DNA from: Abiotrophia sp. HMSC24B09
GTDB taxonomy: Bacteria; Bacillota; Bacilli; Lactobacillales; Aerococcaceae
Length of the DNA: 64,000 nt
NCBI RefSeq assembly: GCF_001815865.1
Contig: NZ_KV822195.1
Coordinates: 368,996-432,995 of the forward strand
Direction of reading: 5' to 3'
A program made the position numbers and the translations under genes. Positions 2,887 to 40,032 of the stretch are shown piece after piece; the first letter of the stretch is position 1; each line of letters starts with the position of its first letter. Below the pieces are notes generated by a model. It had not been told where the DNA came from, searched no databases, and saw only the letters and a program-made list of their open reading frames with translations.

Positions 2887-2897
2887 GAGTGAGATTT

Positions 2898-3872
2898 ATG
2901 TCAAAGAAAATTTTAGGTATTGATTTAGGCGGGACTTCCGTCAAGTTTGCGATTATTTCCTCAGAAGGGGAAATTCAGGAAAAATGGACCATTGGAACCA
3001 ACATCCTAGAGGATGGTAAGCACATCGTGCCTTCTATTATCCAGTCCATTCAAGAACATATGGAACGTTATGGCCTTACCAAAGATGATTTCTTAGGGAT
3101 TGGCATGGGCTCACCAGGTAAGGTGGATGCGCAAGCGGGGACGGTAATCGGGGCTTTCAACCTTAACTGGCGGACCCTACAACGCCTGAAAGATGCCTTT
3201 GAAGCAGCCCTGGATATGCCTTTCTTCCTTGATAATGATGCCAACGTGGCAGCCTTAGGGGAACAATGGAAAGGGGCCGGTAATGGCGAAGCCAATGTGG
3301 TTATGTTTACCCTAGGAACAGGTGTTGGGGGCGGTATCGTCTCTGGCGGCCAAATGGTGCGCGGTGCCAACGGAGCAGCTGGGGAAGTCGGCCATATTAC
3401 GGTCGAAACGACGGACCCAATTCCATGTACCTGCGGTAAGCCAGGTTGCTTGGAGACAGTCGCTTCAGCCACTGGTATTGTCAACCTAGCCCGTAAGTTT
3501 GCCGAAGAATACGCCGGTGACTCACCAATTAAGGCAGCCGTTGATAATGGCGACGAGCTCTCTTCTAAATTAATTTTCGACGCAGCCAAGGATGGCGATT
3601 TCTTCGCTAACCACATTGTGGATATGTTCGCGCGCTATTTAGGTTTGGCATGTTCTCATGTGGCCAATACCCTTAACCCTTCTAAGATTGTGGTGGGTGG
3701 CGGGGTATCCGCAGCCGGGACCTTCCTTTTGGACAAAATTCAAGTATTTTTCAATCAATATGTTTTCCCACCAATTAAAGACACCACTCAGCTTGTCTTG
3801 GCAGAGTTAGGGAACGATGCTGGGGTCATCGGGGCAGCCCAATTAGTACGTCTTGCCCTAAATAAGGACTAG
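2898..3872 (+). CDS. glcK: glucokinase, ROK family
   Basis: Phosphorylates glucose to glucose-6-phosphate with ATP in the cytosol. The protein (324 aa) starts with the ATP-binding LGIDLGGTSVKFA motif. It has a DNDANVAALGE sugar-site segment and the ROK zinc motif CTCGKPGC (C177, C179, C184) with the catalytic EVGH just before it. An in-frame GTG at 2889 overlaps the AGGAGTGAG ribosome binding site, so ATG 2898 is the better start. It is followed ten bases later by the rhodanese-like gene, probably in the same transcript. Confidence 0.9.
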   Translation: MSKKILGIDLGGTSVKFAIISSEGEIQEKWTIGTNILEDGKHIVPSIIQSIQEHMERYGLTKDDFLGIGMGSPGKVDAQAGTVIGAFNLNWRTLQRLKDAFEAALDMPFFLDNDANVAALGEQWKGAGNGEANVVMFTLGTGVGGGIVSGGQMVRGANGAAGEVGHITVETTDPIPCTCGKPGCLETVASATGIVNLARKFAEEYAGDSPIKAAVDNGDELSSKLIFDAAKDGDFFANHIVDMFARYLGLACSHVANTLNPSKIVVGGGVSAAGTFLLDKIQVFFNQYVFPPIKDTTQLVLAELGNDAGVIGAAQLVRLALNKD

Positions 3873-3882
3873 GAGTAGAAGC

Positions 3883-4284
3883 ATGCAAATTCTGAATTTT
3901 ATTACCGTTGTTTTATTAAGTATTATTGTGATTTACACCCTCTATTATGGGATCTTGTGGGGCATGGGCCGTTATGCCGCCAAAGCCATTAAGCAAGAAG
4001 ACCTGATTGCAGCAGGGCGTAAGGGACAATTAATCGATGTTCGTGAAGCGGCTGAGTTTGAGGCTCGTCATATCTTAGGGGCGCGTAATATCCCAAGTTC
4101 TCAATTCAAGATGCGCTTCAAGGAAATCCGTAAGGACCAAGCTATTTACCTAGTAGACGAGGCTTTCGGGACCGCCCAACGTGCGGCTTTCCGTCTCAAA
4201 CGCAATGGCTATAATGACATTTACATCCTTAAGGGTGGTATGACTGAGTGGACGGGTAAGGTTAAGACTGCCAAAGGAAAGTAG
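3883..4284 (+). CDS. membrane-anchored rhodanese-like protein without catalytic cysteine
   Basis: The 133-aa protein has an N-terminal transmembrane helix (about residues 5-30) and a single rhodanese fold (LIDVREAAEFEARHILGARN, then YILKGGMTEW near the end). In active sulfurtransferases the loop after the YL strand starts with cysteine. Here the segment reads YLVDEAFGTAQRAA, and there is no cysteine anywhere in the protein. Sulfur transfer by the usual mechanism is therefore excluded. Similar cysteine-less rhodanese proteins next to glcK are known in Lactobacillales. The role is unknown; a binding or scaffold function is inferred. Confidence 0.85.
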   Translation: MQILNFITVVLLSIIVIYTLYYGILWGMGRYAAKAIKQEDLIAAGRKGQLIDVREAAEFEARHILGARNIPSSQFKMRFKEIRKDQAIYLVDEAFGTAQRAAFRLKRNGYNDIYILKGGMTEWTGKVKTAKGK

Positions 4285-4293
4285 GCGACTAGC

Positions 4294-4920
4294 ATGCGGA
4301 TTCTTTGTTTTGGTGACAGCAATACCTGGGGCCTCAATCCCCTTAATGCCAGTCGTCATCCCAAGCGCTGGACCCGTGTCTTGGCAGCTTTGCGGCCAGA
4401 GGATGAAATTATCGAAGAAGGGCTCAATGGCCGAACGGTCAATAGCCCCGACCATAAGAATCCTGAGCGACACGGCATGACGGCCTTGCCAATGGTCATG
4501 CAATCCCATGCTCCGCTGGATCAGGTAGTCATCATGTTGGGGACCAATGAGTTCAAGCGTCATTTTGGCAAATGCGCCAATCAGATTGCCTTAGGTATTG
4601 GGGAAATGATTAAATACATTCAGAATCCTGCTAACTGGGCCCATTAGGTTCCACCCCAAATTTTGGTGGTATCGCCTATCGTGGTGGGGCGTGGCCTTAT
4701 GAATCATCCCGAATTCCTATACCAGGAAATTGATGAGTATGGCATTATGCAATCAGAATACCTAGCCAATATCTTGGAAAGAATTTGTGACCAGTACGGC
4801 GTGGCCTTCTTAGATGCTAAAACCGTGGCCCAACCTTCCAATATAGACTTCGTTCACATGGACGAGGCAAATCATCAAGCTTTAGGACAAGCGATTGTAG
4901 CCAAATTGGCGACATTATAA
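4294..4920 (+). pseudogene. SGNH/GDSL hydrolase interrupted by an in-frame TAG
   Basis: Reads as one SGNH-family esterase in a single frame, broken by a TAG stop at 4645-4647. The first part holds block I (FGDSNTWG, nucleophile Ser) and block III (MLGTNEF). The part after the stop continues the same frame and holds the DFVH catalytic Asp/His block and the C-terminal HQALGQAI helix. Both halves are otherwise well preserved, so the lesion is recent, or the stop is a sequencing error or is read through. The downstream half alone could start at TTG 4663 but would lack the nucleophile. It lies ten bases after the rhodanese gene, at the end of that cluster, and is followed by a terminator. Confidence 0.8.
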
Positions 4921-4930
4921 AGAAGAGAGA

Positions 4931-4964
4931 AGCTTCTTCCCTAGATTTAGGGAAGAGGCTTTTT
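4931..4964 (+). terminator. rho-independent terminator after the SGNH pseudogene
   Basis: AGCTTCTTCCCTA pairs with TAGGGAAGAGGCT across a short loop (one mismatch), followed by TTTTTC. It ends the glcK cluster transcript. Confidence 0.8.
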
Positions 4965-4987
4965 CTATTTCATAGGGTGCAAGTTCA

Positions 4988-5016
4988 TTGACAAAACGAA
5001 CATACGTTCGTATACT
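4988..5016 (+). promoter_or_regulatory. sigma-A promoter of the yolD-umuC operon
   Basis: TTGACA (4988-4993) and TATACT (5011-5016) are separated by exactly 17 bases. The spacer contains a perfect LexA box, so binding of the repressor would block polymerase directly. Confidence 0.88.
4997..5010. promoter_or_regulatory. LexA (SOS) box
   Basis: CGAACATACGTTCG matches the Gram-positive LexA/DinR consensus CGAAC-N4-GTTCG at every fixed position. It fills the spacer between the -35 and -10 elements of the promoter for the YolD/UmuC-type genes. Confidence 0.9.
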
Positions 5017-5034
5017 TAAGATGAGGTGAATACA

Positions 5035-5391
5035 ATGGCAATGAATACAAATTATCATGACCGCGGCATGAAGAAGTGGCAGCCGTTTTTCTCCAGCCCT
5101 CATTTGAAGGCCAGTGTTCTGGCTAATCGAGAGGAAGTTTTGGCGACTTATCAGGCGCCAGAGGTCATGACCGAGTCCGAAATTGATGCTCAACTCCAGC
5201 GGGCTTTCCAAGAAAGACTGAGGGTTAAGGTGACCCTCAATGTCCAGGTAGCAGAGCGCCATGCTTACTATATGGGGCAGGTCATTGGACGGGCGGATCA
5301 GTTTGTCCTCATCGACAACTCACCGGTTGAATATGAGACCATCCGCCACGTCCAAGTCTATGAGCCAACCAAGTGGTGGGACCATGCTTGA
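5035..5391 (+). CDS. YolD-like family protein
   Basis: A 118-aa soluble protein of the YolD family, which in Firmicutes is regularly encoded directly before a UmuC/DinB-type translesion polymerase. The C-terminal half (LRVKVTLNVQ, GRADQFVLIDN, ETIRHVQVYEP) fits the family beta-strand pattern. ATG 5035 was chosen over GTG 5026 because GAGGTG (5024-5029) is the ribosome binding site. It overlaps the polymerase gene by eight bases, indicating translational coupling. An SOS promoter with a perfect LexA box drives it. The molecular role of YolD is unknown; a UmuD-like partner role has been proposed from context only. Confidence 0.85.
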   Translation: MAMNTNYHDRGMKKWQPFFSSPHLKASVLANREEVLATYQAPEVMTESEIDAQLQRAFQERLRVKVTLNVQVAERHAYYMGQVIGRADQFVLIDNSPVEYETIRHVQVYEPTKWWDHA

Positions 5392-6655
5392 GCGTGACCC
5401 TGACCTCTTCCCCAAACAGGACATTCTCTGCATTGACTGCAAGTCCTTCTTCGCCAGTATTGAATGCGTAGAAAGGGGACTGGACCCGCTGACGGCCAAG
5501 CTTTGCGTGGTCTCCAGGCCCCATCTCAAAGGAGGCTTGGTCCTGGCCAGCAGTCCCCGTATGAAGGCAGAATACGGCATCGGCACTGGCAGTCGAGTTT
5601 ATGATTTACCTAAGCGGGATTCGGATATCGTCTTGGCGCCGGCGCGAATGAATCTTTATGTTCAGCGTAACCATGATATCAACCGAATTTTCCTTCAGTA
5701 TGTGGCTTGGGAGGATTTGCATGTTTATTCGATTGACGAGGCTTTTCTGGATGTGGGGCGCAGTCACGCGCTCTTTGGCTCTAGCTATCAAATTGCCTGG
5801 CAGATTCAGCATGAAATTTACAAGCGCTATGGCCTGCCGACCTGTGTGGGCATAGGGGACAATCTGCTACTGGCCAAGCTTTGTTTGGATAATGTGGCCA
5901 AGTACCGGCCGCCTTATCTGGCTTATTGGTCCTACGCTAGGATTCCAGAGACTGTCTGGAAGATTGAAAAGCTGAGTGATTTCTGGGGGATTGGCCGTCG
6001 CACCCAGAGGTCATTAGAGGACATGGGGATTTACACCGTAAGGGATTTGGCTCATGCTGATTTGGGCAAACTCAAGGCCCGCTTTGGGGTCAAGGGGGCA
6101 GAACTCTATTATCACGCCAATGGTTTAGATGCCAGCGTCATACGTGAGGCTTATAGTCCTCAGAGCCAGGTCTATAGTGCTTCCCAGATTTTGGAAAGGA
6201 ACTATCTGGACTATAGGCAAATCGCCTTGGTGGTCCGAGAAATGGCTGATAACCTAGCTAGCCGCCTGCGACGAGAGGGGCGGATGACATCTTGTTTAGG
6301 CTTGGGTATAGGCTATGGCAAGGACATCGTCCCCAAGCGTTCGGGTGGTCAAATGACCTTTGAATTGACATCTAGTAGCAAGCAACTCATGGCCCACAGC
6401 CAGACCTTGCTCAAGCGTCACTATTTCCGCCTACCTGTTAAGAGCCTGCATCTGACCGTCAGCCATCTGCAGGCAGCCGGCCCAACCCAGCTCTCTCTCT
6501 TCCAAGATCCAGAGCAGTCTGCCCAAGAAGAAAGGGCAGAACGTGTGGTGGATGCTGTTAGGGAGCGCTATGGCTATGGCAGTTTAGTCCGCGCCAGCAG
6601 TCTCTTGCCGGGAGCTACGGCGATCCAAAGATCGGATTTGATTGGGGGCCACTAG
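5384..6655 (+). CDS. Y-family DNA polymerase, UmuC-like (SOS translesion synthesis)
   Basis: Error-prone polymerase for bypass of DNA lesions. The protein (423 aa) shows the Y-family order: CIDCKSFFASIE (first metal site), GLVLASSPRMKAEYGI, YSIDEAFLDVG (second acidic pair), WGIGRRTQRSLEDMGI helix-hairpin-helix thumb, then a little-finger domain to about residue 370. A C-terminal QLSLF at roughly 367-372 resembles a sliding-clamp binding motif. The start is the ATG inside the last codons of yolD; the open frame extends further upstream but overlaps yolD deeply. Closest known types are the UvrX/YqjW-like polymerases of Firmicutes. Expression is expected only after DNA damage. Confidence 0.9.
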   Translation: MLERDPDLFPKQDILCIDCKSFFASIECVERGLDPLTAKLCVVSRPHLKGGLVLASSPRMKAEYGIGTGSRVYDLPKRDSDIVLAPARMNLYVQRNHDINRIFLQYVAWEDLHVYSIDEAFLDVGRSHALFGSSYQIAWQIQHEIYKRYGLPTCVGIGDNLLLAKLCLDNVAKYRPPYLAYWSYARIPETVWKIEKLSDFWGIGRRTQRSLEDMGIYTVRDLAHADLGKLKARFGVKGAELYYHANGLDASVIREAYSPQSQVYSASQILERNYLDYRQIALVVREMADNLASRLRREGRMTSCLGLGIGYGKDIVPKRSGGQMTFELTSSSKQLMAHSQTLLKRHYFRLPVKSLHLTVSHLQAAGPTQLSLFQDPEQSAQEERAERVVDAVRERYGYGSLVRASSLLPGATAIQRSDLIGGH

Positions 6656-6673
6656 TTACCAAAAAGTACCTAA

Positions 6674-6702
6674 TTGTTTTTTCCTGGCAAGCGAGCTAAA
6701 CT
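6674..6702 (+). promoter_or_regulatory. possible promoter of the rclA-like gene
   Basis: TTGTTT and TAAACT stand 17 bases apart, 34 bases before the start codon. Both elements are weak matches, so this is tentative. Confidence 0.35.
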
Positions 6703-6735
6703 AGGATTATAGCAAGAATGAAATGAGGGATTAAC

Positions 6736-8067
6736 ATGACACAACATTATCAAAATATCGTGATTGGCTTTGGTAAAGGGGGCAAAACCCTAGCGAAAAC
6801 CTTGGCTAGTCGTCAAGAACAAGTGCTCTTAATTGAAGCTTCTCCTAAGATGTACGGGGGGACCTGTATCAACATCGGCTGTATTCCATCTAAGACTTTG
6901 ATTGAAGCAGCAGGCCAAGGCTTAGACTTCGAAGCAGCGGCTGCTCGTAAAGCTAAGTTAATTGCTGCTTTAAACGACAAAAACTATCACATGATTGCAG
7001 ATGAAGCAAGTGCCGAAGTTTGGACTGGTTGGGCTCGTTTTACTGGCAACCACAGTCTTGAAGTCACCTTGACTGACGGTCAAACTCGTCAAGTGACAGG
7101 GGACCGCATCTTCATTAACACTGGGGCTAAGACCGCCTTACCAGCTATTCCTGGCTTAGAAGGCAATGATTTTGTCTTAACTTCAACAGAAGCCTTGGAT
7201 TTACAAAAGTTGCCAAAACGTTTAGTTGTGGTAGGGGCAGGGTATATCGGTTTGGAAATGGCTGATATGTTCCGGACCTTCGGTTCTGAAGTGACCGTCT
7301 TGGATATTTTTGACCGCTTCATGCCACGTGAAGAACCAGAAATTGCCGCTCAAATTAAGGCAGATATGGAAGCTGCTGGTTTGACCTTCTACTTAGGCAT
7401 TCAAGATTTGGCCTTTGAGGGTGGGACTGTGACCTATAACTACCAAGGGCAAAGTCAACGCCTAGAAGCTGATGCCATCCTGGTGGCGGCTGGTCGCCGT
7501 CCAAATACCGCGCAATTAGGCTTAGAAAATACGGATATTGAATTGGATGCTCAAGGTGCGGTTGTGGTGAATGAACACTTAGAAACAGCAGTTCCTGGCG
7601 TTTACGCTTTGGGTGATGTCAAAGGTGGGCCACAATTTACCTATGTATCTCTAGATGATTTCCGCATTGTCAAAGACCAACTCTGGGGCGACAAGTCTCG
7701 CAAGGTGTCTGACCGTAATCTCATTCCTTACACCGTCTTCCTCCAAACGCCATTATCACATGTGGGCTTGACGGAAGCGCAAGCGGTGGAAGCAGGTCAT
7801 GAGGTCTTAGTCTTCGGCTTACCAATGGCGGCTGTGCCTAAAGCCAAAGTCATCGGCAATGACCGCGGTAGCTTCAAGATTATTGTCAACAAGGCAGATC
7901 AAACCATTCTGGGTGCCACTCACTATGGGGTTATGTCACCAGAAGTCATTAACTTCTTAGCATTAGCTATCAAGACCAAGGTGCCTTACACTGAAATTCG
8001 CGACTTCCTCTTCACCCATCCAACCATTGCGGAAGCCTTGAACGATGTCTTAAAACAACCAAAATAA
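6736..8067 (+). CDS. flavin disulfide reductase, RclA / hypothiocyanous acid reductase-like
   Basis: Class I pyridine nucleotide-disulfide oxidoreductase (443 aa) binding FAD and NAD(P)H. It has an N-terminal dinucleotide fold, the redox cysteine pair in GGTCINIGCIPSK (C44, C49), a second nucleotide-binding GAGYIGLEMAD and a C-terminal FTHPTIAEALND (H428). The I-N-I-G-C segment, the QTPLSHVGLTEAQA block and the length match RclA of Escherichia coli and the pneumococcal hypothiocyanous acid reductase better than dihydrolipoamide or mercuric reductases. The likely role is protection against HOCl/HOSCN made by host peroxidases. It is monocistronic, with a terminator behind it. The family is certain; the substrate is inferred. 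Confidence 0.8.
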   Translation: MTQHYQNIVIGFGKGGKTLAKTLASRQEQVLLIEASPKMYGGTCINIGCIPSKTLIEAAGQGLDFEAAAARKAKLIAALNDKNYHMIADEASAEVWTGWARFTGNHSLEVTLTDGQTRQVTGDRIFINTGAKTALPAIPGLEGNDFVLTSTEALDLQKLPKRLVVVGAGYIGLEMADMFRTFGSEVTVLDIFDRFMPREEPEIAAQIKADMEAAGLTFYLGIQDLAFEGGTVTYNYQGQSQRLEADAILVAAGRRPNTAQLGLENTDIELDAQGAVVVNEHLETAVPGVYALGDVKGGPQFTYVSLDDFRIVKDQLWGDKSRKVSDRNLIPYTVFLQTPLSHVGLTEAQAVEAGHEVLVFGLPMAAVPKAKVIGNDRGSFKIIVNKADQTILGATHYGVMSPEVINFLALAIKTKVPYTEIRDFLFTHPTIAEALNDVLKQPK

Positions 8068-30579: not shown

Positions 30580-32401
30580 GGATATCCGAAATATTGCTAT
30601 TATTGCCCACGTCGACCACGGTAAAACCACACTGGTTGACGAGTTGCTTAAACAGTCCAACACCCTCGATGAGCGTGCTAAATTAGATGAGCGTGCCATG
30701 GACTCTAACGACATTGAAAAAGAACGTGGGATTACCATCTTAGCCAAAAACACTGCCGTTGATTATAAGGGGACTCGTATCAACATCTTGGACACCCCAG
30801 GTCACGCGGACTTCGGTGGCGAAGTAGAACGTATCATGAAAATGGTTGATGGGGTTATTCTGGTGGTGGATGCCTATGAAGGGACCATGCCACAAACTCG
30901 CTTTGTCTTGAAGAAAGCCTTAGAACAACACTTAGTACCGATTGTCGTAGTCAACAAGATTGATAAGCCTTCTGCTCGTCCAGAAGAAGTAGTAGATGAA
31001 GTCTTAGAGCTCTTCATCGAATTAGGGGCCGACGATGATCAATTGGAATTCCCAGTGGTCTATGCTTCAGCCCTTAACGGGACGTCTAGTCTATCTGACA
31101 ATCCAGCAGACCAAGAGCCATCCATGGATGCTATCTTTGACTCAGTTATTGAACATGTACCTGCTCCAGTTGATAACTCCAACCAACCATTACAATTCCA
31201 AGTTTCCCTGTTGGACTATAATGAATACGTGGGGCGTATTGGGATTGGCCGTATCTTCCGTGGGAAGATGAAAGTCGGCGACAACGTGACCCTTATGAAG
31301 GTTGACGGCACTAGCAAGAACTTCCGTATTACTAAGATGTTTGGTTTCTTCGGCTTGGACCGCGTGGAAATTAACGAAGCTAAGGCAGGGGACTTAATTG
31401 CCTTATCAGGTATGGAAGATATCTTCGTTGGAGAAACCGTAGCAGATGCTGCAAATCCTGAAGCTCTACCTATTCTTCACATTGATGAGCCTACCTTACA
31501 AATGACCTTCTTAACCAACAACTCGCCATTTGCTGGTAAAGAAGGCAAGTACGTGACTTCCCGTAACCTCCAAGATCGTCTTATGCAAGAATTGCAAACA
31601 GACGTATCCTTGCGCGTGGATCCAACCGACTCACCAGATGCCTTTATCGTTTCTGGTCGTGGGGAATTACACTTGGCTATCTTAATTGAGAACATGCGTC
31701 GTCAAGGTTATGAGTTCCAAGTTTCACGTCCTAAGGTGATTCTTAAGGAAATCGATGGCAAGACCTGTGAACCTTTCGAACGCGTACAAATTGACACACC
31801 AGAAGAATACATGGGGGCGATTATTGAAGCCTTAGGTCAACGTAAGGCTGAAATGGCGGACATGGTGACCACAGGTAATGGCCAAATCCGTATGGTCTTC
31901 TCTGTGCCAGCTCGTGGCTTGATTGGGTTCTCAACTGAGTTCTTATCTATGACCCGTGGTTATGGGATTATGAACCATAGCTTCGATGACTATCAACCAG
32001 TTATTGATTCCAATATTGGGAACCGTCGTAACGGTGCCTTGGTTGCCCTTGAGGCAGGACAAGCCACCACTTATGGGATTATGAACTTAGAAGATCGTGG
32101 GACTATCTTTGTTAACCCAGGGACTGAAGTCTACGGTGGGATGATTATTGGGGAACATAACCGTGAGAACGACTTAACTGTTAATATCACCAAGGCTAAA
32201 CAATTAACTAACATTCGTTCAGCAACCAAGGACCAAACCGCAGTGATTAAACGCCCACGTATTCTAACTCTAGAAGAATCCTTAGAGTTCATGGATGATG
32301 ATGAATACTGTGAAGTAACACCTGAGAGCGTTCGTTTACGTAAGCAAATCCTTGACAAGGGTGCGCGTGAACGCGAAACCAAGAAAGCTAAGAAGGCCTA
32401 A
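30566..32401 (+). CDS. typA: ribosome-associated translational GTPase TypA/BipA
   Basis: EF-G-like GTPase (611 aa) that binds 70S ribosomes and helps large-subunit assembly and stress growth. It has G1 AHVDHGKTTL, switch I with RGITI, G3 DTPGHADFG, G4 NKIDK, domain II, EF-G-like domains III and V, and the BipA-specific C-terminal domain (RARSxx-like NRRNGALVALEAG onward). The length is normal. Confidence 0.96.
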   Translation: MNTRKDIRNIAIIAHVDHGKTTLVDELLKQSNTLDERAKLDERAMDSNDIEKERGITILAKNTAVDYKGTRINILDTPGHADFGGEVERIMKMVDGVILVVDAYEGTMPQTRFVLKKALEQHLVPIVVVNKIDKPSARPEEVVDEVLELFIELGADDDQLEFPVVYASALNGTSSLSDNPADQEPSMDAIFDSVIEHVPAPVDNSNQPLQFQVSLLDYNEYVGRIGIGRIFRGKMKVGDNVTLMKVDGTSKNFRITKMFGFFGLDRVEINEAKAGDLIALSGMEDIFVGETVADAANPEALPILHIDEPTLQMTFLTNNSPFAGKEGKYVTSRNLQDRLMQELQTDVSLRVDPTDSPDAFIVSGRGELHLAILIENMRRQGYEFQVSRPKVILKEIDGKTCEPFERVQIDTPEEYMGAIIEALGQRKAEMADMVTTGNGQIRMVFSVPARGLIGFSTEFLSMTRGYGIMNHSFDDYQPVIDSNIGNRRNGALVALEAGQATTYGIMNLEDRGTIFVNPGTEVYGGMIIGEHNRENDLTVNITKAKQLTNIRSATKDQTAVIKRPRILTLEESLEFMDDDEYCEVTPESVRLRKQILDKGARERETKKAKKA

Positions 32402-32417
32402 GAGCTAAGTGCTTCAA

Positions 32418-32448
32418 GGGCAGCCTCCTAATCTGAGGAAGCTGCCCT
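32418..32448 (+). other. hairpin between typA and dnaD
   Basis: GGGCAGC pairs with GCTGCCC, with an inner TCCT/AGGA stem. No T run follows, so it may stabilise or partly end the typA transcript. Confidence 0.5.
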
Positions 32449-32486
32449 GTGCCAATAGAAAAACTAGACTGAGAAGGGGGAGCATC

Positions 32487-33173
32487 ATGTATAATTGGTA
32501 CCAAGAAGGCTTTGTAGTCTTGCCGCAGGTCTTACTCAGCCATTATCAAGACTTAGGCTTGAGTCCAGAAACCTTTCTCCTAGTGACCACGATATTAGGT
32601 CAGAAGGATGGGGATTTGAGTCCTATGGCTGTTGTAGAACTGTGCTCGCAACATTACGGTTGGCAGTCTCATCAAGCCATGTCTCAACTATCTCTCTTAG
32701 CAGATCAGGGTTATCTCGTCTTTGAAATGGATACTTCGGGCCAAGACCGTTTGAGTCTAGCGCCACTTTTTGAACGACTAGACTCCTTTAATCCAGCAGC
32801 TAGTCAAAAACAGACGACTTCTAGTAATGAGACAGACCCAACAAGTAATCAGAAAGAGACCATGACGGCTAGTCAACTCATTCCTCTGGTGGAAGGGGAG
32901 TTTGGCCGTTCCCTGTCAGCACTCGAATATGAGACCTTGAATGGCTGGCTCAAGCAAGATGGCTATGCGCCTGATTTAATTCGTCTAGCAGTTAAGGAAG
33001 CCGTTTTGCGTCAAGCCCTCAGCCTTAAGTATATTGATCGCATTCTGATTAATTGGGAGCGCCATGGCTTGACCACTGCTACTCAGGTTCAAGCCTATCT
33101 AGAAAGCCGCGATAAGGACCAGCCCAACAATCAAGAGGCGGTTTATGATCAGATTGATATTCCACTACTCTAA
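32487..33173 (+). CDS. dnaD: DnaD domain replication protein
   Basis: Primosome-type protein (228 aa). The N-terminal winged-helix DDBH1 domain (about 1-95) is joined by a polar linker rich in S, T and Q to the DDBH2 domain (about 130-215), which ends in the YIDRILINWERHGL (YxxxIxxxW) motif typical of DnaD/DnaB. DnaD remodels DNA and loads helicase with DnaB and DnaI. ATG 32487 has AAGGGGGAG upstream; the longer frame from 32409 runs through a hairpin. Confidence 0.88.
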   Translation: MYNWYQEGFVVLPQVLLSHYQDLGLSPETFLLVTTILGQKDGDLSPMAVVELCSQHYGWQSHQAMSQLSLLADQGYLVFEMDTSGQDRLSLAPLFERLDSFNPAASQKQTTSSNETDPTSNQKETMTASQLIPLVEGEFGRSLSALEYETLNGWLKQDGYAPDLIRLAVKEAVLRQALSLKYIDRILINWERHGLTTATQVQAYLESRDKDQPNNQEAVYDQIDIPLL

Positions 33174-33197
33174 AGCATTGTAGAAGGAGAGAGAAGT

Positions 33198-33587
33198 ATG
33201 GTTGAATCTTTGAATAGCCGGGCAGACTTTGTGACAACTGCCAACTGGATGTCTGGTGGTGTTATGGGCCGCCATGGCCGTATTCTAGTTGGTAACAAGG
33301 CATTCGAATTCTATAACGACCGTAATCCTGCTGATTTCGTTCAGATTCCTTGGGGCGAAATTCGTCAGGTTCGTGCCATCATGCTGATGAAACGGGGCTT
33401 CATTCGTGGCTTTTTCATTGATACTAAGTCTGCTGGCACCTATCACTTTGTCGTCTCTAAGGCCGGCCAGACCCTTAAGGCCATGCGAAACTATCTGGCG
33501 GAAGAACAACTGGTCAGAAATAAGCCAATCTTCTCCCTGGCCAAGCTTTGGAAAGAATGGCGCCATAAAAAAGCAAAGAAACAATAG
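33198..33587 (+). CDS. DUF956 family protein (ManO-like)
   Basis: A 129-aa soluble protein of the DUF956 family. Members usually lie beside mannose-family PTS genes in Lactobacillales (manO). Visible conserved parts are GVMGRHGRILVGNKAFEFYN, IPWGEIRQVRA and a basic C-terminus (EWRHKKAKKQ). Here no PTS gene is within the window, so the gene has been separated from its usual partners. GGAGAGAG precedes the ATG; a terminator follows. Confidence 0.82.
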   Translation: MVESLNSRADFVTTANWMSGGVMGRHGRILVGNKAFEFYNDRNPADFVQIPWGEIRQVRAIMLMKRGFIRGFFIDTKSAGTYHFVVSKAGQTLKAMRNYLAEEQLVRNKPIFSLAKLWKEWRHKKAKKQ

Positions 33588-33596
33588 GACCTCTAG

Positions 33597-33621
33597 CCCT
33601 CAGCTAAATGCTGAGGGTTTT
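33597..33621 (+). terminator. terminator after the DUF956 gene
   Basis: CCCTCAGC and GCTGAGGG form a perfect 8-bp stem with loop TAAAT, followed by TTTT. Confidence 0.88.
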
Positions 33622-33636
33622 GTTCATTATTTGAAC
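33622..33636. promoter_or_regulatory. palindromic operator-like site 1, lic operon
   Basis: GTTCA-TTATT-TGAAC is a perfect 5-5-5 palindrome, 18 bases upstream of the -35 of the licA promoter. The same arms and spacing recur at 33691-33705. Confidence 0.7.
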
Positions 33637-33653
33637 TTTTTAAGCTGAAACCC

Positions 33654-33682
33654 TAGACATAAGAGAATAAGTGGTTTATACT
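33654..33682 (+). promoter_or_regulatory. sigma-A promoter of the lic operon
   Basis: TAGACA and TATACT with 17-base spacing. The expected start of transcription falls at about 33690, just before the second palindrome. Confidence 0.7.
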
Positions 33683-33690
33683 AGACTAAA

Positions 33691-33705
33691 GTTCAAAAAA
33701 TGAAC
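33691..33705. promoter_or_regulatory. palindromic operator-like site 2, lic operon
   Basis: GTTCA-AAAAA-TGAAC is a perfect palindrome with the same arms and spacing as site 1, placed at about +1 of the lic promoter and ending 18 bases before the licA start. Confidence 0.7.
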
Positions 33706-33723
33706 ACAGAAAGAAGGGCTAAG

Positions 33724-35586
33724 ATGAATGACTTAATGACCTTGCTGTATTACTTGAACCGAGAAGAAGCGGGCAGTCAACGTGATATGGCACAAGCGAC
33801 TAACCTATCCCTAGGCAAAATTAATCTGATTCTCAAGCGACTTGATGAACAAGGATACATTGAGATTGAGCGTCAGGGGACGCGTAACCACTATCAAGTG
33901 ACGGACAAGGGCTTGGCTTTGCTAGAGACCGGCTTGAAAGATGCAAATGCCCGTAAGATTCAGTTGGCTCAGGCCAAGGAGAAAATTCATCAGGCAGTCA
34001 TTCTTGCTGCAGGCCAACCTCGTCATCTGGACCAACCCGTGCCACTCCTATCATTAGGGGACCATACCTTATTGGATCGGACCCTTCAAGTCTTACGAGA
34101 TCAAGGAGTAGAGCGTTTTGTCTTGGTTGCTGGCTTCCAAGCTGACCTCTTGGCTCAACATGTTGCTGACATGCCTGATGTGACTCTAGTAGTCAATGAG
34201 GCTTATGCCCACACAGGGACAATGGCTTCTCTGGCCACGGCAGCTCCTCATATTGATGGCGACTTCTTCCTGATTGAGGGGGATTTACTCTTTGAAGTCC
34301 GTGGGATTAAGGGGCTGAATAAGGTCGCTAATGACTCCGCGATGTTGATTACCAGTGTGCGTGAGCAACATGATGAGGCCATGGTGGAATTGCGTGATGG
34401 CTATGTTTATAAGATGGGGAAGGATATTCACCAATTCAACCGTATTGACGGTGAAATGATTGGTCTATCAAAATTGTCCTATCCTTTCTACCTTAAGATG
34501 TTGGCCATTTATGCTGACAACCTTAATCCTTATGTTAACTATGAATATATTATGTTGGATGTTGCGCAAGACTACCGCTTGGGGTACCTTAAACTGGATG
34601 ACTTCTTCTGGGGTGAAATTGACGATGCTAGTCAGGTTCATCATGTTCTTAAGCGTGTTTACCCACGTTTGGTTCGCAAGGAAGAACGAGCAGCTAAGCA
34701 AGAAGTGGAGCAGTTCTTGGCCGACCAGATGGATGCTAGCCCTGAGGAAATTGCGACCTTAGAAAGTGCCGGTGGTATGACTAACAAGAACTACAAGGTC
34801 ACCCTCAAAGGCCAACCTTACATCATTCGGATTGCCGGCAACGGGACGGAGAAGTTTATTAATCGCCCAGCTGAGAAATCCAATAGCCTATTAGCTCATA
34901 TTCTGGGCTTAGATGCTGAGACCCTTTACTTTGACGAAGTGACAGGGACCAAGGTGTCAGCTTTCATTCCAGAGGCTGAGACCCTAAATGCTAATACGGC
35001 GACTTATCTTAACAATATGCGAATGACAACGGGACTCCTCAGACACTTGCATCAATCAGGATTAGACTTTGATAACCGTTTTGATGTCTTCGAGGAGATT
35101 GCTAAGTATGAGAGTTTTGTGGATGAAGTAGGGGCAGACTATTTTGACGGCTATCAGGCGACACGTCAGGAAGTTTTCCAACTACAGGAAGATTTGGCTG
35201 ACTTACCAGTTCAAATAGTGCCATGTCACATTGACACAGTTCCAGAGAACTTTGTCAAAGGTGGAGACGGCAAATCCTATCTCATTGACTGGGAATACTC
35301 AGGTATGAACGACTTGGCTTGGGATTTAGCGGCCCATAGTCTAGAATGTGGCTTCAGCCAAGAGCAGGAAGACCGCTTCTTAAGTCTCTACTGTCAAGAT
35401 CAAGAGGTGCCAGTAAGCTTGAAGACTAAACTCTTAATCTATCAAATTTGCCAAGACTTCCTCTGGTCAGTTTGGACCATCTTCAAGGAAAGCCGGGGCG
35501 ATGATTTCGGAGACTATGGGATTGAACGTTACCGTCGTGCGCAAGCTAACCTAGCACGCTACCATGCTCTAAAAAAGGAAGGATGA
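33724..35586 (+). CDS. licA: winged-helix / nucleotidyltransferase-like / choline kinase fusion (LicA-type)
   Basis: A 620-aa three-part protein. Residues 1-68 form a MarR-like winged helix (SQRDMAQATNLSLGKINLIL recognition region, then a wing). Residues 88-310 are a sugar-nucleotide-transferase-like domain. Residues 340-620 are a LicA-type choline kinase with catalytic HIDTVPEN (H502, D504, N509) and LIDWEYSG (D522). The kinase looks active. The nucleotidyltransferase signature is damaged: the usual G-x-G-T/S-R and PK motifs appear as AAGQPRHLDQPVPLL. A separate intact LicC is encoded two genes on. ATG 33724 has GAAGGG upstream; ATG 33700 lies inside the second palindrome. The expected role is phosphorylating choline for teichoic acid decoration; DNA-binding by the N-terminus is inferred. 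Confidence 0.85.
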   Translation: MNDLMTLLYYLNREEAGSQRDMAQATNLSLGKINLILKRLDEQGYIEIERQGTRNHYQVTDKGLALLETGLKDANARKIQLAQAKEKIHQAVILAAGQPRHLDQPVPLLSLGDHTLLDRTLQVLRDQGVERFVLVAGFQADLLAQHVADMPDVTLVVNEAYAHTGTMASLATAAPHIDGDFFLIEGDLLFEVRGIKGLNKVANDSAMLITSVREQHDEAMVELRDGYVYKMGKDIHQFNRIDGEMIGLSKLSYPFYLKMLAIYADNLNPYVNYEYIMLDVAQDYRLGYLKLDDFFWGEIDDASQVHHVLKRVYPRLVRKEERAAKQEVEQFLADQMDASPEEIATLESAGGMTNKNYKVTLKGQPYIIRIAGNGTEKFINRPAEKSNSLLAHILGLDAETLYFDEVTGTKVSAFIPEAETLNANTATYLNNMRMTTGLLRHLHQSGLDFDNRFDVFEEIAKYESFVDEVGADYFDGYQATRQEVFQLQEDLADLPVQIVPCHIDTVPENFVKGGDGKSYLIDWEYSGMNDLAWDLAAHSLECGFSQEQEDRFLSLYCQDQEVPVSLKTKLLIYQICQDFLWSVWTIFKESRGDDFGDYGIERYRRAQANLARYHALKKEG

Positions 35587-35592
35587 ACTTAG

Positions 35593-36528
35593 ATGAAAAA
35601 TAAGGAAACAAGTGGCATTATTGCCGGTCTATTGTCAGGCCTTTTGTGGGGGGCAGATACCCATTATAATGGCGTTATTCTGATGATGTTACCCTTCACG
35701 CTAGTGGATCCAAGACTGGCTGGAGCCGCTCTCTTATTGGCCCTCTTCCATGATGGTTTTTCTGCCTTAATGATGACGGGGGAGTTGGTTCGTCAAGGGC
35801 AACTCAAGCAAACTTTCAAACAATTGACCAGCAAGAGTTCCTTTGTGGTCATGTTAGCAGCTGTTTTAGGTGGTCCTATGGGTATGCGGGCCTATCTCTA
35901 TGCGGTAGATGCGATTGGGGCAGGCTTAACAGCAAGTATTTCCTCTATGTATCCAGTGGTTGCTGCTTTTTTAGGTATGTTAATTCTTAAGGAAAAGATA
36001 ACTAAGCCAGTTTGGATTGGCTTGGGCTTGGCCGTGTTAGCGGTCTTAGGCGTGAGTCTGTCTGGTGATATGATGCAATCTAATGCCCAACTGATTGGCT
36101 TCTTAGTGGCCTTTCTCAGCGTAGTCGGCTGGTCTTTGGAGAGTGTGATTTGTTCCATTGGGATGAAGGAAGATTTGAATCCTAAGCAAGCTCTTTGGAT
36201 TCGTCAATGCGTCTCTACTTTAGTTTATTTGGGCTTTATTACCTTCGAATCTGACTTGGTCTTTAGCGTGACGGCTGTTATTAGTCAGCCAGTTCTTTGG
36301 TTAATCTTGGGTGTTGCTGTCTTAGGCACATTGTCTTATTTGAATTTTTATCGCGCAATTGATACAATTGGTCCTGTAAAGGCTACTGCACTCAATATAT
36401 CATACGCTATTTGGGCCATTGTCTTCTCCATCTTGCTAGGAGGAGCTGAATTTAACCCAATTCTCTTGCTATCGGCGGCTTTGATGATTGTAAGCAGTGT
36501 CTTAGTTTCACAACACGAAGGAGCCTAA
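35593..36528 (+). CDS. licB: choline permease LicB (DMT/EamA transporter)
   Basis: Membrane transporter (311 aa) with about ten hydrophobic helices in two EamA repeats. The second repeat ends with ILLSAALMIVSSVLVS. Its position between the choline kinase and the CTP:phosphocholine cytidylyltransferase makes choline the likely substrate, as for pneumococcal LicB. It starts six bases after licA. Confidence 0.85.
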   Translation: MKNKETSGIIAGLLSGLLWGADTHYNGVILMMLPFTLVDPRLAGAALLLALFHDGFSALMMTGELVRQGQLKQTFKQLTSKSSFVVMLAAVLGGPMGMRAYLYAVDAIGAGLTASISSMYPVVAAFLGMLILKEKITKPVWIGLGLAVLAVLGVSLSGDMMQSNAQLIGFLVAFLSVVGWSLESVICSIGMKEDLNPKQALWIRQCVSTLVYLGFITFESDLVFSVTAVISQPVLWLILGVAVLGTLSYLNFYRAIDTIGPVKATALNISYAIWAIVFSILLGGAEFNPILLLSAALMIVSSVLVSQHEGA

Positions 36529-36531
36529 GCT

Positions 36532-37224
36532 ATGAAAGCAATAATTCTCGCCGCTGGTATGGGAACTCGCTTGCGGCCAATCACCCTTACAACCCCTAAG
36601 TCCTTAATTGAAGTCGCTGGTACAAGCTTAATTGAGCGCCAGATTGAATTCTTGCGGGCTAAAGGGATTGAAGACATTATTGTTGTGACAGGGTACTTGG
36701 CTGAAAAATTCGATTTTCTGAAGGACCAGTATGGCGTGACCTTGATTCACAATGCCCAATATGAAAGCTACAATAACTTCTACACCATGTACTTGGTCCG
36801 TCACTACTTGAGTGATGCCTATGTTATTGATGCTGATAACTTCCTAGTTGATAATTTCTTGTTATCGGCACCAGAAAGCTCCCTTTACTTTGGGGTAGCG
36901 AAAGAAGGCTTCAAGGATGAATGGGTCTTGCATTACCAGCAAGATGACCTTCGCGTAACGGCCATTACGGTAGAAAGTGGTCAAGGGCGGATTCTGTCTG
37001 GCGTCTCTTACTGGAGTGCCAAAGACGGCCAACATCTACAGCAACTGATTGAGCGCTACTACCAAGAAGCAGATTATGCCAATCTCTACTGGGATGATGT
37101 GGTCAAGGATAACCTAGCTGATTTAGATGTTCATGTTTATCCAATTGAAGGCCATCGGACCTTTGAAATTGATAGCCTAGAGGATTTAGAAGCGCTACGT
37201 TCGCAAATGGAAGCAAAAAAATAG
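36532..37224 (+). CDS. licC: CTP:phosphocholine cytidylyltransferase
   Basis: Makes CDP-choline from CTP and phosphocholine. The 230-aa protein has an intact nucleotidyltransferase signature (ILAAGMGTRL, PKSL), YNNFYTMYLVRHYL and the IDADNFL metal site. The length matches pneumococcal LicC. It begins three bases after licB and is closed by a strong terminator, so licA-B-C is one unit. Confidence 0.92.
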   Translation: MKAIILAAGMGTRLRPITLTTPKSLIEVAGTSLIERQIEFLRAKGIEDIIVVTGYLAEKFDFLKDQYGVTLIHNAQYESYNNFYTMYLVRHYLSDAYVIDADNFLVDNFLLSAPESSLYFGVAKEGFKDEWVLHYQQDDLRVTAITVESGQGRILSGVSYWSAKDGQHLQQLIERYYQEADYANLYWDDVVKDNLADLDVHVYPIEGHRTFEIDSLEDLEALRSQMEAKK

Positions 37225-37228
37225 CGAG

Positions 37229-37254
37229 AAGCCAGACAAGTGTCTGGCTTTTTT
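37229..37254 (+). terminator. terminator of the licABC operon
   Basis: AAGCCAGACA and TGTCTGGCTT form a perfect 10-bp stem with a two-base center, followed by TTTT. Confidence 0.9.
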
Positions 37255-37327
37255 GTTTTGGATGTGTGATCATTTCTTAATAAAATGCTTAAGCTAACGA
37301 CTTTTCCATGCGTGTCGATATAAGATG

Positions 37328-37336
37328 TGCTATAAT
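37328..37336 (+). promoter_or_regulatory. extended -10 promoter of tarI
   Basis: TGCTATAAT is an extended -10 with no convincing -35, 47 bases before tarI. It makes tarI-tarJ-licD a separate transcript from licABC. Confidence 0.5.
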
Positions 37337-37383
37337 AATTAGGATAGAAAGACACTTTACGATAGTGAGAAGGAGAGAGAGGC

Positions 37384-38091
37384 ATGATTTATGCAGGTAT
37401 TCTAGCAGGGGGCATTGGATCCAGAATGGGGATTCAAGATATGCCTAAGCAATTCCTCATGTTAGGCAATAAGCCCATTATTATTCATACCATCGAAAAA
37501 TTCTTAGTAGTACCAGACATTGACCAAGTCTATGTAGCCGTACATCCTAACTGGTTAGTCTACTTCAATGATTTAGTAAATAAGCACTTGCCAGGCCATG
37601 AGTCTAAGATTAAAGGCGTTGATGGGGGTGGGGATCGGAATGATAGTATCCTTAATATCATCGCAGATATTAAGGCGGCCGGTCCTGTCTCTGACCAAGC
37701 TATTTTAATTACTCATGATGCGGTACGTCCTTTTGTCTCTTACCGTATGATTCAAGACAACATCAAGGTCATGGCTGACTATGATGCGACCGATACAGTG
37801 GTCATGGCTAACGATACCATTGTGGAATCCCAAGACGGTAAGTCCATTAGTTCTATTCCTAATCGGGCTCACATGTTCCAAGGTCAGACACCTCAAACCT
37901 TCCGTATCAATCAGTTTGATAGCCTCTTCGCTAGCCTCAGTCAAGACGAGCGTGAGATTTTAACCGATGCCTGCAAGGTCTTTGTCCTCAAAGGGAAAAG
38001 TGTTGGCCTAGTAAAAGGGGAATACTCTAACTTGAAGATTACGACCGTGACCGATTTGAAAATTGCAGAAGCTATGTTGGGAGAGATCTAA
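37384..38091 (+). CDS. tarI: ribitol-5-phosphate cytidylyltransferase (TarI; IspD-like)
   Basis: Makes CDP-ribitol for teichoic acid polymer. The 235-aa IspD-family fold has AGGIGSRMGIQDMPKQFL, HDAVRPFVS and QTPQTF. IspD itself is the other possibility, but direct coupling to TarJ (ribulose-5-phosphate reductase) and licD points to TarI. GAAGGAGAGAG precedes the ATG. Confidence 0.88.
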   Translation: MIYAGILAGGIGSRMGIQDMPKQFLMLGNKPIIIHTIEKFLVVPDIDQVYVAVHPNWLVYFNDLVNKHLPGHESKIKGVDGGGDRNDSILNIIADIKAAGPVSDQAILITHDAVRPFVSYRMIQDNIKVMADYDATDTVVMANDTIVESQDGKSISSIPNRAHMFQGQTPQTFRINQFDSLFASLSQDEREILTDACKVFVLKGKSVGLVKGEYSNLKITTVTDLKIAEAMLGEI

Positions 38092-38092
38092 A

Positions 38093-39121
38093 GTGATTAA
38101 TCGCGTCTATCAATTACTTCGCCCATACTTCTTCTCAGTTAAGTATGAAGATGTGTCGACAGACTTGGCTAAGCCAGTCGTGGTGCGTCCTAATTATATG
38201 GCCCTCTGCCATGCAGATCAACGCTATTACCAAGGTAAGCGTGCAGCCAAAGTACTTAAGCAAAAACTACCAATGGCCTTGATTCATGAGTGTTGCGGCA
38301 TCGTCGTACGTGACGAAACCGGCACCTATCAAGTAGGGGACAAGGTCGTCATGATTCCCAATCAGCCACCGCAAGGTTTTGACCATTCGGGTGAGTTCTA
38401 TGAGAACTATGTGGAAGGAACTCACTTCCTATCCAGTGGTTACGATGGTTTCATGCAGGAATTTGTGCATTTACCATTAGACCGCGTTGTGGGCTATCAT
38501 AGCATTCCAGATGTGGTAGCGGCGATGACCGAGTTTGTCTCGGTGGCGGCGCACGGGGCCCGTCGTTTTGACTCTATGGCCTTATCCAAGCGTGACCGAA
38601 TCGTGGTCTGGGGATCAGGTTCGCTAGCCTTTGTCCAAGCTACCGTCTTAAGAGCTAAGTTTCCAGATGCTACGATTATTGTAGTAGGTAAAAACCACGA
38701 TAAATTAAGACTTTTCAGCTTTGTAGATGAAGTCTATGAATTGCAAGATATTCCGGAAGATTTCAGCTTCGACCATGCTTTTGAGTGTGTGGGTGGCGAT
38801 GCCAGTCAGGAAGCCATTCGTGACATTATTAAGTATATTAAACCTCAAGGAACGCTGATTTTAATGGGGGTTTCCGAGACGGAAGTGCCAGTCAATACCC
38901 GTGATGTCTTAGAAAAAGGGCTGACCTTAGTAGGTTCTTCTCGCTCAGGGCGTGAGGACTTCCAATTAGCTGTGGCCTTGATGGAAAACCCACAAGTCTC
39001 CTCAAGACTGCGGATGATTATCCACCAAGTAGGGGATTTAGAGGATGTCAAGGATATCTATCAATTCTTCGAAGAAGACCGTAAGACACCATTTAAAACG
39101 GTGGCTAAGTGGAATATCTAA
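38093..39121 (+). CDS. tarJ: ribulose-5-phosphate reductase (TarJ)
   Basis: Zinc-type alcohol dehydrogenase (342 aa) that reduces ribulose-5-P to ribitol-5-P with NADPH. It has a GxGSLA nucleotide fold (VVWGSGSLAFVQATVL), CHADQRYY and HECCGIVV. The GTG at 38093, one base after the tarI stop, gives an N-terminus (VINRVYQLLRP) like that of pneumococcal TarJ; the frame upstream is inside tarI. GGGAGAG in the tarI tail is the ribosome binding site. Confidence 0.9.
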   Translation: MINRVYQLLRPYFFSVKYEDVSTDLAKPVVVRPNYMALCHADQRYYQGKRAAKVLKQKLPMALIHECCGIVVRDETGTYQVGDKVVMIPNQPPQGFDHSGEFYENYVEGTHFLSSGYDGFMQEFVHLPLDRVVGYHSIPDVVAAMTEFVSVAAHGARRFDSMALSKRDRIVVWGSGSLAFVQATVLRAKFPDATIIVVGKNHDKLRLFSFVDEVYELQDIPEDFSFDHAFECVGGDASQEAIRDIIKYIKPQGTLILMGVSETEVPVNTRDVLEKGLTLVGSSRSGREDFQLAVALMENPQVSSRLRMIIHQVGDLEDVKDIYQFFEEDRKTPFKTVAKWNI

Positions 39122-39148
39122 TGTTCAATTAAAAGAAGGAGGGGTTAG

Positions 39149-39985
39149 ATGGAACCCATTCAAGCCAAAAGCCTAGAAATGGCCCAATACTTTGTTGCCT
39201 TCTGCCAGAAGCATAATCTTTTATGCTACTTGTGTGGTGGTGGAGCGATTGGGGCTTTGCGTCATCAGGGCTTTATTCCATGGGATGATGATTTAGACTT
39301 TTTTATGCCAAGGGAAGACTATGAACGTTTGGCAGAACTCTGGCCCAAAGAGGCAGATTCGCGTTATTTTCTGTCGCGGTCTCATGAGGGCTATGTCGAC
39401 CGTAACCTCTTCATCACGATTCGTGACCGCCAGACAACTTGCCTCAAGCCTTATCAAGCTGACTTAGACTTGCCACATGGTCTGGCCTTAGATGTACTGC
39501 CTTTGGACTATGCACCGGCCTCAGCCTGGAAACGTAAGACCCAGAAGGTCTGGGCCTTAATCTATTCGCTCTTTTGCGCTCAAACCGTGCCTGAAAAGCA
39601 TGGGGGCCTTTTGGCCTGGGGCAGTCGAGTGCTGCTAGGTCTAGTCCCAAGTTCTAAACTCCGTTATAAGATCTGGTCACTCGCTCATAAAAAGATGACT
39701 AAGATCACTCGCCAAGAGGCGGCTTACCGTATTGAGTTGTGTTCCGGTCCTTACTATATGAGCAAACTCTATCCAATCGAGGCCTTTGATCAAGCTGTCT
39801 TCAAGCCTTTTGAAGGGACGGAAATGCCCATTCCAGCAGGTTATGATGCCTATTTGAGTGAGGCATTTGGCGACTATATGACGCCACCGCCTAGTCAGAA
39901 TCAAAAGCCACATCACGATGCTTTATTGCTGGATTTGGAGCGACCTTATACTGATTATGACCTCAAGACCGGTCAGCTGAAGTAG
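39149..39985 (+). CDS. licD: LicD family phosphocholine transferase
   Basis: Transfers phosphocholine from CDP-choline to teichoic acid sugars. The 278-aa protein has the LicD signature: CGGGAIGALRHQGFIPWDDD with the DLDF metal site and the PREDYERL helix. The C-terminal part is typical (GYDAYLSEAFGDYM). AGAAGGAGGGG precedes the ATG. A single licD is visible, whereas pneumococcus has two or three; others may lie elsewhere. Confidence 0.92.
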   Translation: MEPIQAKSLEMAQYFVAFCQKHNLLCYLCGGGAIGALRHQGFIPWDDDLDFFMPREDYERLAELWPKEADSRYFLSRSHEGYVDRNLFITIRDRQTTCLKPYQADLDLPHGLALDVLPLDYAPASAWKRKTQKVWALIYSLFCAQTVPEKHGGLLAWGSRVLLGLVPSSKLRYKIWSLAHKKMTKITRQEAAYRIELCSGPYYMSKLYPIEAFDQAVFKPFEGTEMPIPAGYDAYLSEAFGDYMTPPPSQNQKPHHDALLLDLERPYTDYDLKTGQLK

Positions 39986-40032
39986 GGGGAACTCTCTAAC
40001 TTAGCTATAGATTAACAGTTTTTAGCCAAATC

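Follow-up and report, generated by a model that had tools for sequence, protein, structure and literature searches.

A choline kinase fused to a winged helix and a pseudo-cytidylyltransferase domain: a candidate sensor and autorepressor of the phosphocholine operon in Abiotrophia

Surface phosphocholine shapes growth and host contact in many Gram-positive bacteria. Enzyme folds joined to a winged helix-turn-helix (wHTH) domain are known to serve as sensors, as in ROK repressors such as NagC and in BirA-type enzyme-repressors, which have other folds and belong to other pathways than the protein described here. The enterobacterial NadR consists of a helix-turn-helix domain, an NMN adenylyltransferase and a ribosylnicotinamide kinase; according to the excerpts of PMC12421817, it represses the genes of its own pathway, its middle domain senses NAD and ATP, and bound NAD restores DNA binding. 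A nucleotidyltransferase-fold pseudoenzyme has also been described: GMPPA, the inactive paralogue of the GDP-mannose pyrophosphorylase GMPPB, binds the product nucleotide GDP-mannose and inhibits its partner, thus exerting feedback (excerpts of PMC11228364).

The enzymes to which our protein is related are PntC from Treponema denticola (6PD1/6PD2) and LicA and LicC from Streptococcus pneumoniae (4R77, 1JYK). The aminoethylphosphonate cytidylyltransferase PntC carries the consensus GXG(T/S)RX4-8PK, whose first five residues define the pyrophosphate site; the Tde-PntC variants R15A, K25A and K153A each keep less than 10% activity, and Glu216 of LicC is named as a metal-side residue (excerpts of PMC6697681).

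In the open-access literature we found no account of the fusion with a wHTH, of the loss of the loop or of the operator reported below, and no dedicated transcriptional sensor of the phosphocholine pathway in these bacteria; the excerpts of PMC10434233 make no mention of a regulator, a helix or Abiotrophia. PMC12282319, considered as a relevant licA/licC paper, was rejected, the genes of that name in its excerpts being lichenan genes. The fusion as such is already known to annotators, as names in the homologue listing read 'phosphocholine cytidylyltransferase/choline kinase' or 'winged helix-turn-helix transcriptional regulator'.

The window analyzed here is a stretch of 64,000 nucleotides from Abiotrophia sp. 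HMSC24B09. The ORF call gave an open frame at 33700-35586 (628 aa), but 33724, the start chosen in the initial annotation, is better than 33700, because AGAAGG at 33712-33717 precedes it and the Streptococcus anginosus homologue begins with MNDL, identical to the fusion protein read from this position. Residue numbers below refer to the 628-aa frame; subtracting 8 gives the numbering from 33724 (620 aa). The features of the transcription unit are the following.

33595..33619, + strand: terminator-like hairpin of the upstream gene, left border of the unit (pattern scan)
33622..33636, no strand: putative operator copy 1, GTTCATTATTTGAAC (palindrome match)
33654..33682, + strand: promoter-like TAGACA-17-TATACT (10/12 match)
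33691..33705, no strand: putative operator copy 2, GTTCAAAAAATGAAC, over the likely transcription start (palindrome match)
33712..33717, + strand: ribosome-binding-site-like AGAAGG (sequence)
33724..35586, + strand: fusion gene, wHTH - pseudo-cytidylyltransferase - choline kinase, 620 aa (ORF, Pfam)
33724..33939, + strand: winged helix-turn-helix domain (HTH_24 above cut-off)
33988..34674, + strand: pseudo-nucleotidyltransferase domain, PntC/LicC-like (Pfam, structure-sequence matches, alignment)
34012..34041, + strand: shortened loop replacing GXG(T/S)RX4-8PK (alignments)
34744..35565, + strand: LicA-type choline kinase domain, intact (Pfam, 4r77 match, alignment)
35593..36528, + strand: LicB-like EamA transporter of the fusion-gene unit (ORF, Pfam)
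36532..37224, + strand: LicC phosphocholine cytidylyltransferase, intact, of the fusion-gene unit (ORF, Pfam, 1jyk match)
37226..37253, + strand: terminator-like hairpin, right border of the unit (pattern scan)

The fusion gene is followed after 7 bp by licB and the latter after 4 bp by licC, and hairpins bound the unit. The separate intact LicC that had been noticed in the operon is indeed there, the product of 36532-37224 matching 1jyk at 3.2e-70. Terminator-like hairpins number 11 in the region against a shuffle mean of 3.4, while promoter-like sites are not in excess (8 against 6.8). Downstream of the unit lie genes for a ribitol-phosphate cytidylyltransferase (tarI-like) and a dehydrogenase (tarJ-like) as well as licD, none with an operator of its own within one mismatch. 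No riboswitch or other known RNA reached the Rfam cut-off in 32000-40000.

Pfam recognizes HTH_24 in the N-terminal region (24.4 bits, cut-off 21.9), NTP_transf_3 at residues 99-200 (1.4e-13) and Choline_kinase at residues 357-611 (7e-18). The triple fusion proposed initially thus stands, but its label 'MarR-like' is loose, since MarR_2 scores 19.7 bits against the 27 required for membership of that family. The fusion pattern is far beyond chance. The protein shares 97% identity across 628 residues with one from Abiotrophia defectiva ATCC 49176 (the closest comparison genome has 65% of sampled words in common with the window), and 724 proteins match it at E<=0.001; a triple fusion unique to this bacterium is thereby ruled out, and the window protein is not peculiar in its architecture.

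The kinase domain matches S. pneumoniae LicA (4r77) at 7.2e-72. H510, D512, N517, D530 and E532 are invariant in all 82 aligned sequences, and so are Y533, W589, W592 and Y606, the counterparts of the LicA choline-pocket aromatics, which we placed on the fusion protein through the 4r77 alignment from the residues named in the excerpts of PMC4364537. By the motifs given there, the features of a LicA choline kinase are all present: the Brenner motif, the choline-kinase motif and the aromatic choline pocket. CHIDTVPEN has I where the printed Brenner motif has N, as does pneumococcal LicA; where the printed choline-kinase motif opens with I/L/V, the fusion protein has S. The kinase was therefore rightly described as intact. 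The fusion kinase shares with the pneumococcal system that it is a LicA with LicB and LicC encoded alongside; the pneumococcal LicA itself stands alone as a protein.

The middle domain had been related to LicC. This kinship does not hold as stated: PntC (6pd1) matches at 9.6e-24 and LicC (1jyk) at 0.057, so that LicC was rejected as the closest relative and PntC is the nearest solved one. The loss of G-x-G-T/S-R..PK, on the other hand, is real. Compared with PntC, the nucleotide loop has a 5-residue deletion, with PntC R15 replaced by H109 and K25 by V114. Among the best 120 of the 724 homologues, aligned with the query, the motif occurs in none, and in 114 the conserved AAG and the conserved P are separated by seven residues. 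Of the 82 aligned sequences, none has R at the position of Arg15, where 56 have E or D, and none has K at that of Lys25, which is occupied by V, A, I or S throughout. A shifted but complete nucleotide site, a possibility raised with the first description, was not found in the family alignment. We conclude from these alignments that the cytidylyltransferase activity of the middle domain has most likely been lost.

The rest of the pocket behaves differently, with E193, D195, K241 and D308 invariant in all 82 sequences and E306 kept in 81. E193 corresponds to PntC Glu104 (near the amine), D195 to D106 and K241 to the catalytic K153; PntC D106 and the EID pair are presumably metal binders. Judged from the alignment, the substrate/product side of the pocket is kept and the triphosphate side gone, a combination that would fit a sensor. 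PntC itself differs in having GXG(T/S)RX4-8PK intact, in being active, and in being fused to an aminotransferase, not to a wHTH and a kinase (excerpts of PMC6697681). The middle domain does not look like a decaying relic, since it is conserved like the active kinase and its pocket residues are invariant: the mean share of the commonest residue is 0.673, against 0.678 for the kinase and 0.524 for the wHTH, and columns at >=90% number 62 of 228, 86 of 273 and 9 of 72, respectively. Recent decay was rejected because the loop loss is common to the homologues, which form one clade with the domain conserved. The loop whose loss had been read as damage in the window gene is absent from all of the best 120 of 724 homologues, and its loss appears ancestral to the clade.

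This history was followed in a tree of 69 nucleotidyltransferase domains, rooted at midpoint, in which L062 and L063 were left out as their domain was missed by the start motif. All 44 loop-less domains fall in one clade (97/92) made of 23 triples, 12 two-domain proteins that lack the wHTH, from Bacteroidota among other groups, and 9 kinase-less wHTH proteins; the loop loss would thus date to the ancestor of this clade. Its sister (99/88) comprises five kinase-less wHTH-nucleotidyltransferases, four with intact loops and one (L243) in which the arginine is kept and the lysine lost. Given the midpoint root, the direction from intact to lost loop is likely rather than proven. The intact-loop triples (L225, L227-L239) have the domain order of the fusion protein but differ in their intact loop, in grouping with LicC across the tree (100/99) and in half-sites 24-25 bases apart instead of 5 (10/14), and their position in the tree suggests that the triple order probably has more than one origin.

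The sister-clade neighborhoods examined were those of L226, L242 and L243, where, as in L219-L225, neighbors were named by resemblance to L022 proteins or by phmmer with window proteins. L242 (intact loop, 2565-3512) and L243 (half-lost loop, 4612-5585), both kinase-less wHTH-nucleotidyltransferases, adjoin genes resembling PEP mutase and phosphonopyruvate decarboxylase of 2-aminoethylphosphonate synthesis, L243 also an aminotransferase like that of L022; L226 lies near a LicC and a stand-alone kinase. L243 has an exact copy of the operator described below immediately upstream of its start, and in the stretches examined of L226 and L242 none was found at >=9/10.

Full-length fusion matches were found in 17 of 146 Clostridiaceae genomes, and the triple in one of 147 Streptococcaceae genomes (G061), while in 41 others a match at E<=1e-60 was confined to the kinase; in a draw of 398 genomes from the phylum, G001 was the only one among the matches listed. 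This systematic sampling covered the two families and the phylum draw. Such scattered occurrence suggests transfer or repeated loss. A 640-aa licA frame in two streptococci was discarded as upstream read-through of a plain LicA gene. Bacteroidales proteins of ~1050 aa (L040, L056) join an intact nucleotidyltransferase, a loop-less one and a kinase, and in a Clostridium-type locus (L222:2811-4429) the pseudoenzyme-kinase gene is broken into overlapping frames of 130 and 419 aa, perhaps by a frameshift.

The palindrome GTTCA-N5-TGAAC was noticed repeatedly in upstream regions and then fixed as a search pattern. The first set, drawn from 36 loci, comprised 37 wHTH-bearing loop-less genes: 36 triples, of which one is truncated where its contig stops, and the L064 gene, which has no kinase part. 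The near-copies of the window L081 and L082 were left out, and the search ran from -220 to +60. Matches of >=9/10 were found at 30 of the 37 genes and of >=8 at 34, levels reached by 0.7% and 10.9% of dinucleotide shuffles. Of the controls of this set, two-domain genes without wHTH gave none of 23 at >=9 (three at 8), kinase-only genes one of 13, which is the separate kinase of L064, intact triples one of four, and other ORF starts 9 of 350. L006, L007, L026 and L028 have 8/10 matches only; the site is lacking in L008, whose spacer has one base too many, in L036 from Fusobacteriaceae, and at one of the two tandem copies of L022. The second set came from the 146 Clostridiaceae and 147 Streptococcaceae genomes; the pattern had been fixed in advance, and six wHTH and two kinase loci already present in the first set were removed. 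Here all 14 wHTH genes (12 triples, two kinase-less) had a site at >=9, against none of two two-domain and none of 36 kinase-only genes. Pooled, the site is present at 44 of 51 wHTH genes and at none of the 25 two-domain genes that lack the wHTH, counts that are less than independent owing to kinship, in part close, within and between both sets.

Symmetrizing 34 sites gave the consensus RTTCA-W5-TGAAY with TTC and GAA invariant. A promoter-like sequence scoring >=9 lies upstream of 33 of 38 sites, and in 30 of these 33 the operator starts 6-10 bp past the -10 hexamer; this search took the best of many positions, and among 760 shuffled upstream sequences 172 also score >=9, their gap averaging 12. 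Lying 6-10 bp past the -10 box, the operator would cover the probable point where transcription begins, as expected of a repressor site; copy 2 of the window begins 8 bp past the -10 box of TAGACA-17-TATACT. With one mismatch allowed, the window holds two sites, which is the chance number (shuffle mean 2.04; 59 of 100 shuffles have at least two); what is notable is that both copies are exact, 69 bp apart and at the fusion gene. The LexA/SOS box, GAAC..GTTC, has the opposite half-site order and was set aside as the identity of the palindrome.

Twelve genomes have 1 to 8 exact sites each, mostly not commoner than the reversed control. In 11 of them one or two exact sites lie at the fusion gene, the exception (G004) being an intact-loop triple. 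Nine further exact or spacer-variant sites, none before a lic gene, were taken as chance and a larger regulon was rejected; the regulon thus appears small and mostly limited to the fusion gene's own operon. In a Pediococcus-type genome an exact palindrome (L123:1995-2009) lies 167 bp before a short gene, presumably a MazF-type toxin look-alike, and is probably there by chance. The intact-loop triples show a related arrangement in 10 of 14 cases, counting exact half-sites or, for L235, one mismatch: GTTCA and TGAAC are 24 bases apart, exactly in L225, L229, L230, L236, L237, L238 and L239 and at 9/10 in L235 and also L228, or 25 bases apart in L231 and L232; L227, L233 and L234, of the 14 examined, lack 24/25-spaced half-sites. 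They often flank the ribosome-binding site, with TGAAC in the start codon, and could be a stretched operator or an RNA hairpin.

Beyond the fusion gene, the operator precedes licB in related clostridia (L012, L013, L059, L061), a weakly EamA-like gene in another (L016), and in L022 both licC and an aminotransferase - TPP enzyme - PEP mutase set. In L222 a copy is found upstream of a gene for a 603-aa protein whose N-terminal part is a nucleotidyltransferase, a divergent gene being an alternative target. In L064 it precedes a separate kinase followed by the ethanolamine transporter gene eutH, and the regulator there is a wHTH-pseudoenzyme without kinase, with its own operator. This locus (4088-7489) is from Fonticella tunisiensis and its operators, at the kinase-EutH unit and at the wHTH-pseudoenzyme, point to an ethanolamine substrate. 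The best 37 matches to the L064 regulator are 320-356 aa long and have the same wHTH-pseudoenzyme make-up. Since kinase-less proteins with their own operator exist, the wHTH-pseudoenzyme unit would thus work without the kinase, in choline, ethanolamine or aminoethylphosphonate pathways. In Clostridium cadaveris two loop-less triples stand in tandem (L022:5984-9869), with an operator at the second only.

A separate intact LicC-type gene is present in the locus of 33 of the 37 loop-less wHTH genes and near all 23 two-domain genes, and licB in 30 of the 37 loci. In L017, L023 (~8 kb downstream searched), L026 and L030 (contig ends) no LicC-type gene was found. In most of these species, synthesis of CDP-choline therefore does not seem to need the middle domain.

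The best explanation, which we regard as likely, is an autorepressing choline kinase with a dead-cytidylyltransferase sensor of a pathway metabolite. The wHTH would bind RTTCA-W5-TGAAY over the transcription start of the kinase-licB-licC operon, and the middle domain, of the PntC/LicC fold family, would be kept as a ligand-binding sensor after loss of its triphosphate/pyrophosphate loop. The fusion protein very probably binds this operator, repression is strongly favored over activation, and the sensing of a pathway metabolite is quite probable. For the ligand, product-side CDP-choline comes foremost and phosphocholine next, the choice of CDP-choline being a tentative one by analogy. When plentiful, CDP-choline would be bound by the middle domain and the wHTH would hold the operator; when scarce, the operator would be released and kinase, transporter and LicC made. 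Sign and ligand are guesses here, based on the repressor-like location of the site and on the analogies with NadR and GMPPA. The bound ligand would alter DNA binding and perhaps, as we infer, kinase activity, so that one protein would make phosphocholine and set the amount of the pathway. The idea of a one-protein regulator of its own pathway has thus gained a conserved candidate operator that tracks the wHTH and in some species also precedes other lic genes. The worry that the N-terminal domain lacks DNA-binding ability was not borne out: HTH_24 is above cut-off, and the conserved palindrome that accompanies the domain is its likely DNA target.

One could assume that the middle domain is a mere scaffold or spacer between a DNA-bound wHTH and a kinase whose choline/ATP state, or dimerization, gives the signal; the catalytic loop is gone and the window's kinase, on the same chain, could see choline directly. 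We consider this unlikely, as the domain is as conserved as the kinase, with an invariant pocket, and kinase-less proteins keep both domain and operator. Somewhat less probable still is a middle domain that remains an enzyme, either a cytidylyltransferase with a substitute loop or a catalyst of another CDP-choline/phosphocholine reaction: E193, D195, E306 and D308 are kept and K241 matches the catalytic K153 of PntC, but the counterparts of R15 and K25, both needed in Tde-PntC (excerpts of PMC6697681), are absent in 82 of 82 sequences and a separate intact LicC-type gene is nearby in the proportions given above.

The palindrome is simple and A/T-rich, and its binding by the fusion protein is predicted from sequence; it might belong to another regulator, with the targets of the wHTH elsewhere. 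This is improbable in view of its tracking of the wHTH (44/51 against 0/25) and of the one or two exact copies that accompany the gene in all but one of 12 genomes, the one without them having an intact-loop triple. Hardly credible, finally, is an ordinary bifunctional LicC-LicA enzyme with an incidental wHTH, as suggested by database names like 'phosphocholine cytidylyltransferase/choline kinase family protein', against which stand the loop missing from 120 of 120 (the best of 724 homologues) and the conserved operator.

Returning to the sensor-repressor, the sequences themselves show which domains it has, that the loop was lost in an ancestor, that pocket residues are conserved, and that a conserved operator goes with the wHTH. 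The protein resembles NadR in layout, both having the order DNA-binding, nucleotidyltransferase-type and small-molecule kinase domain, but is not a NadR: the pathway is another one, and the middle domain of NadR is active whereas the catalytic loop is deleted here (excerpts of PMC12421817). No NadR-type model was found among the families listed in two domain scans (in the second, the best 25 of 36). We also take the folds to be of different families, Rossmann-type for the adenylyltransferase of NadR and GT-A-like for the cytidylyltransferase here. GMPPA differs in being eukaryotic, without DNA-binding or kinase fusion, and in acting on an enzyme partner (excerpts of PMC11228364). A possible, rather speculative history is that a kinase-less wHTH-PntC-like regulator of aminoethylphosphonate genes lost its pyrophosphate loop, kept a pocket for a CMP-ligand, joined choline operons and was fused to the kinase, so that CDP-choline would control both promoter and kinase, the outcome being scattered in Bacillota and without wHTH in Bacteroidota.

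Altogether, the fusion protein is best read as an enzyme-derived one-protein regulator, a known kind. It offers a candidate pathway sensor whose DNA site and pocket are defined and which has kinase-less relatives, and a series leading from an enzyme with an intact loop, through a half-lost loop, to a pseudoenzyme regulator. Many genes named cytidylyltransferase/choline kinase are probably without the first activity.
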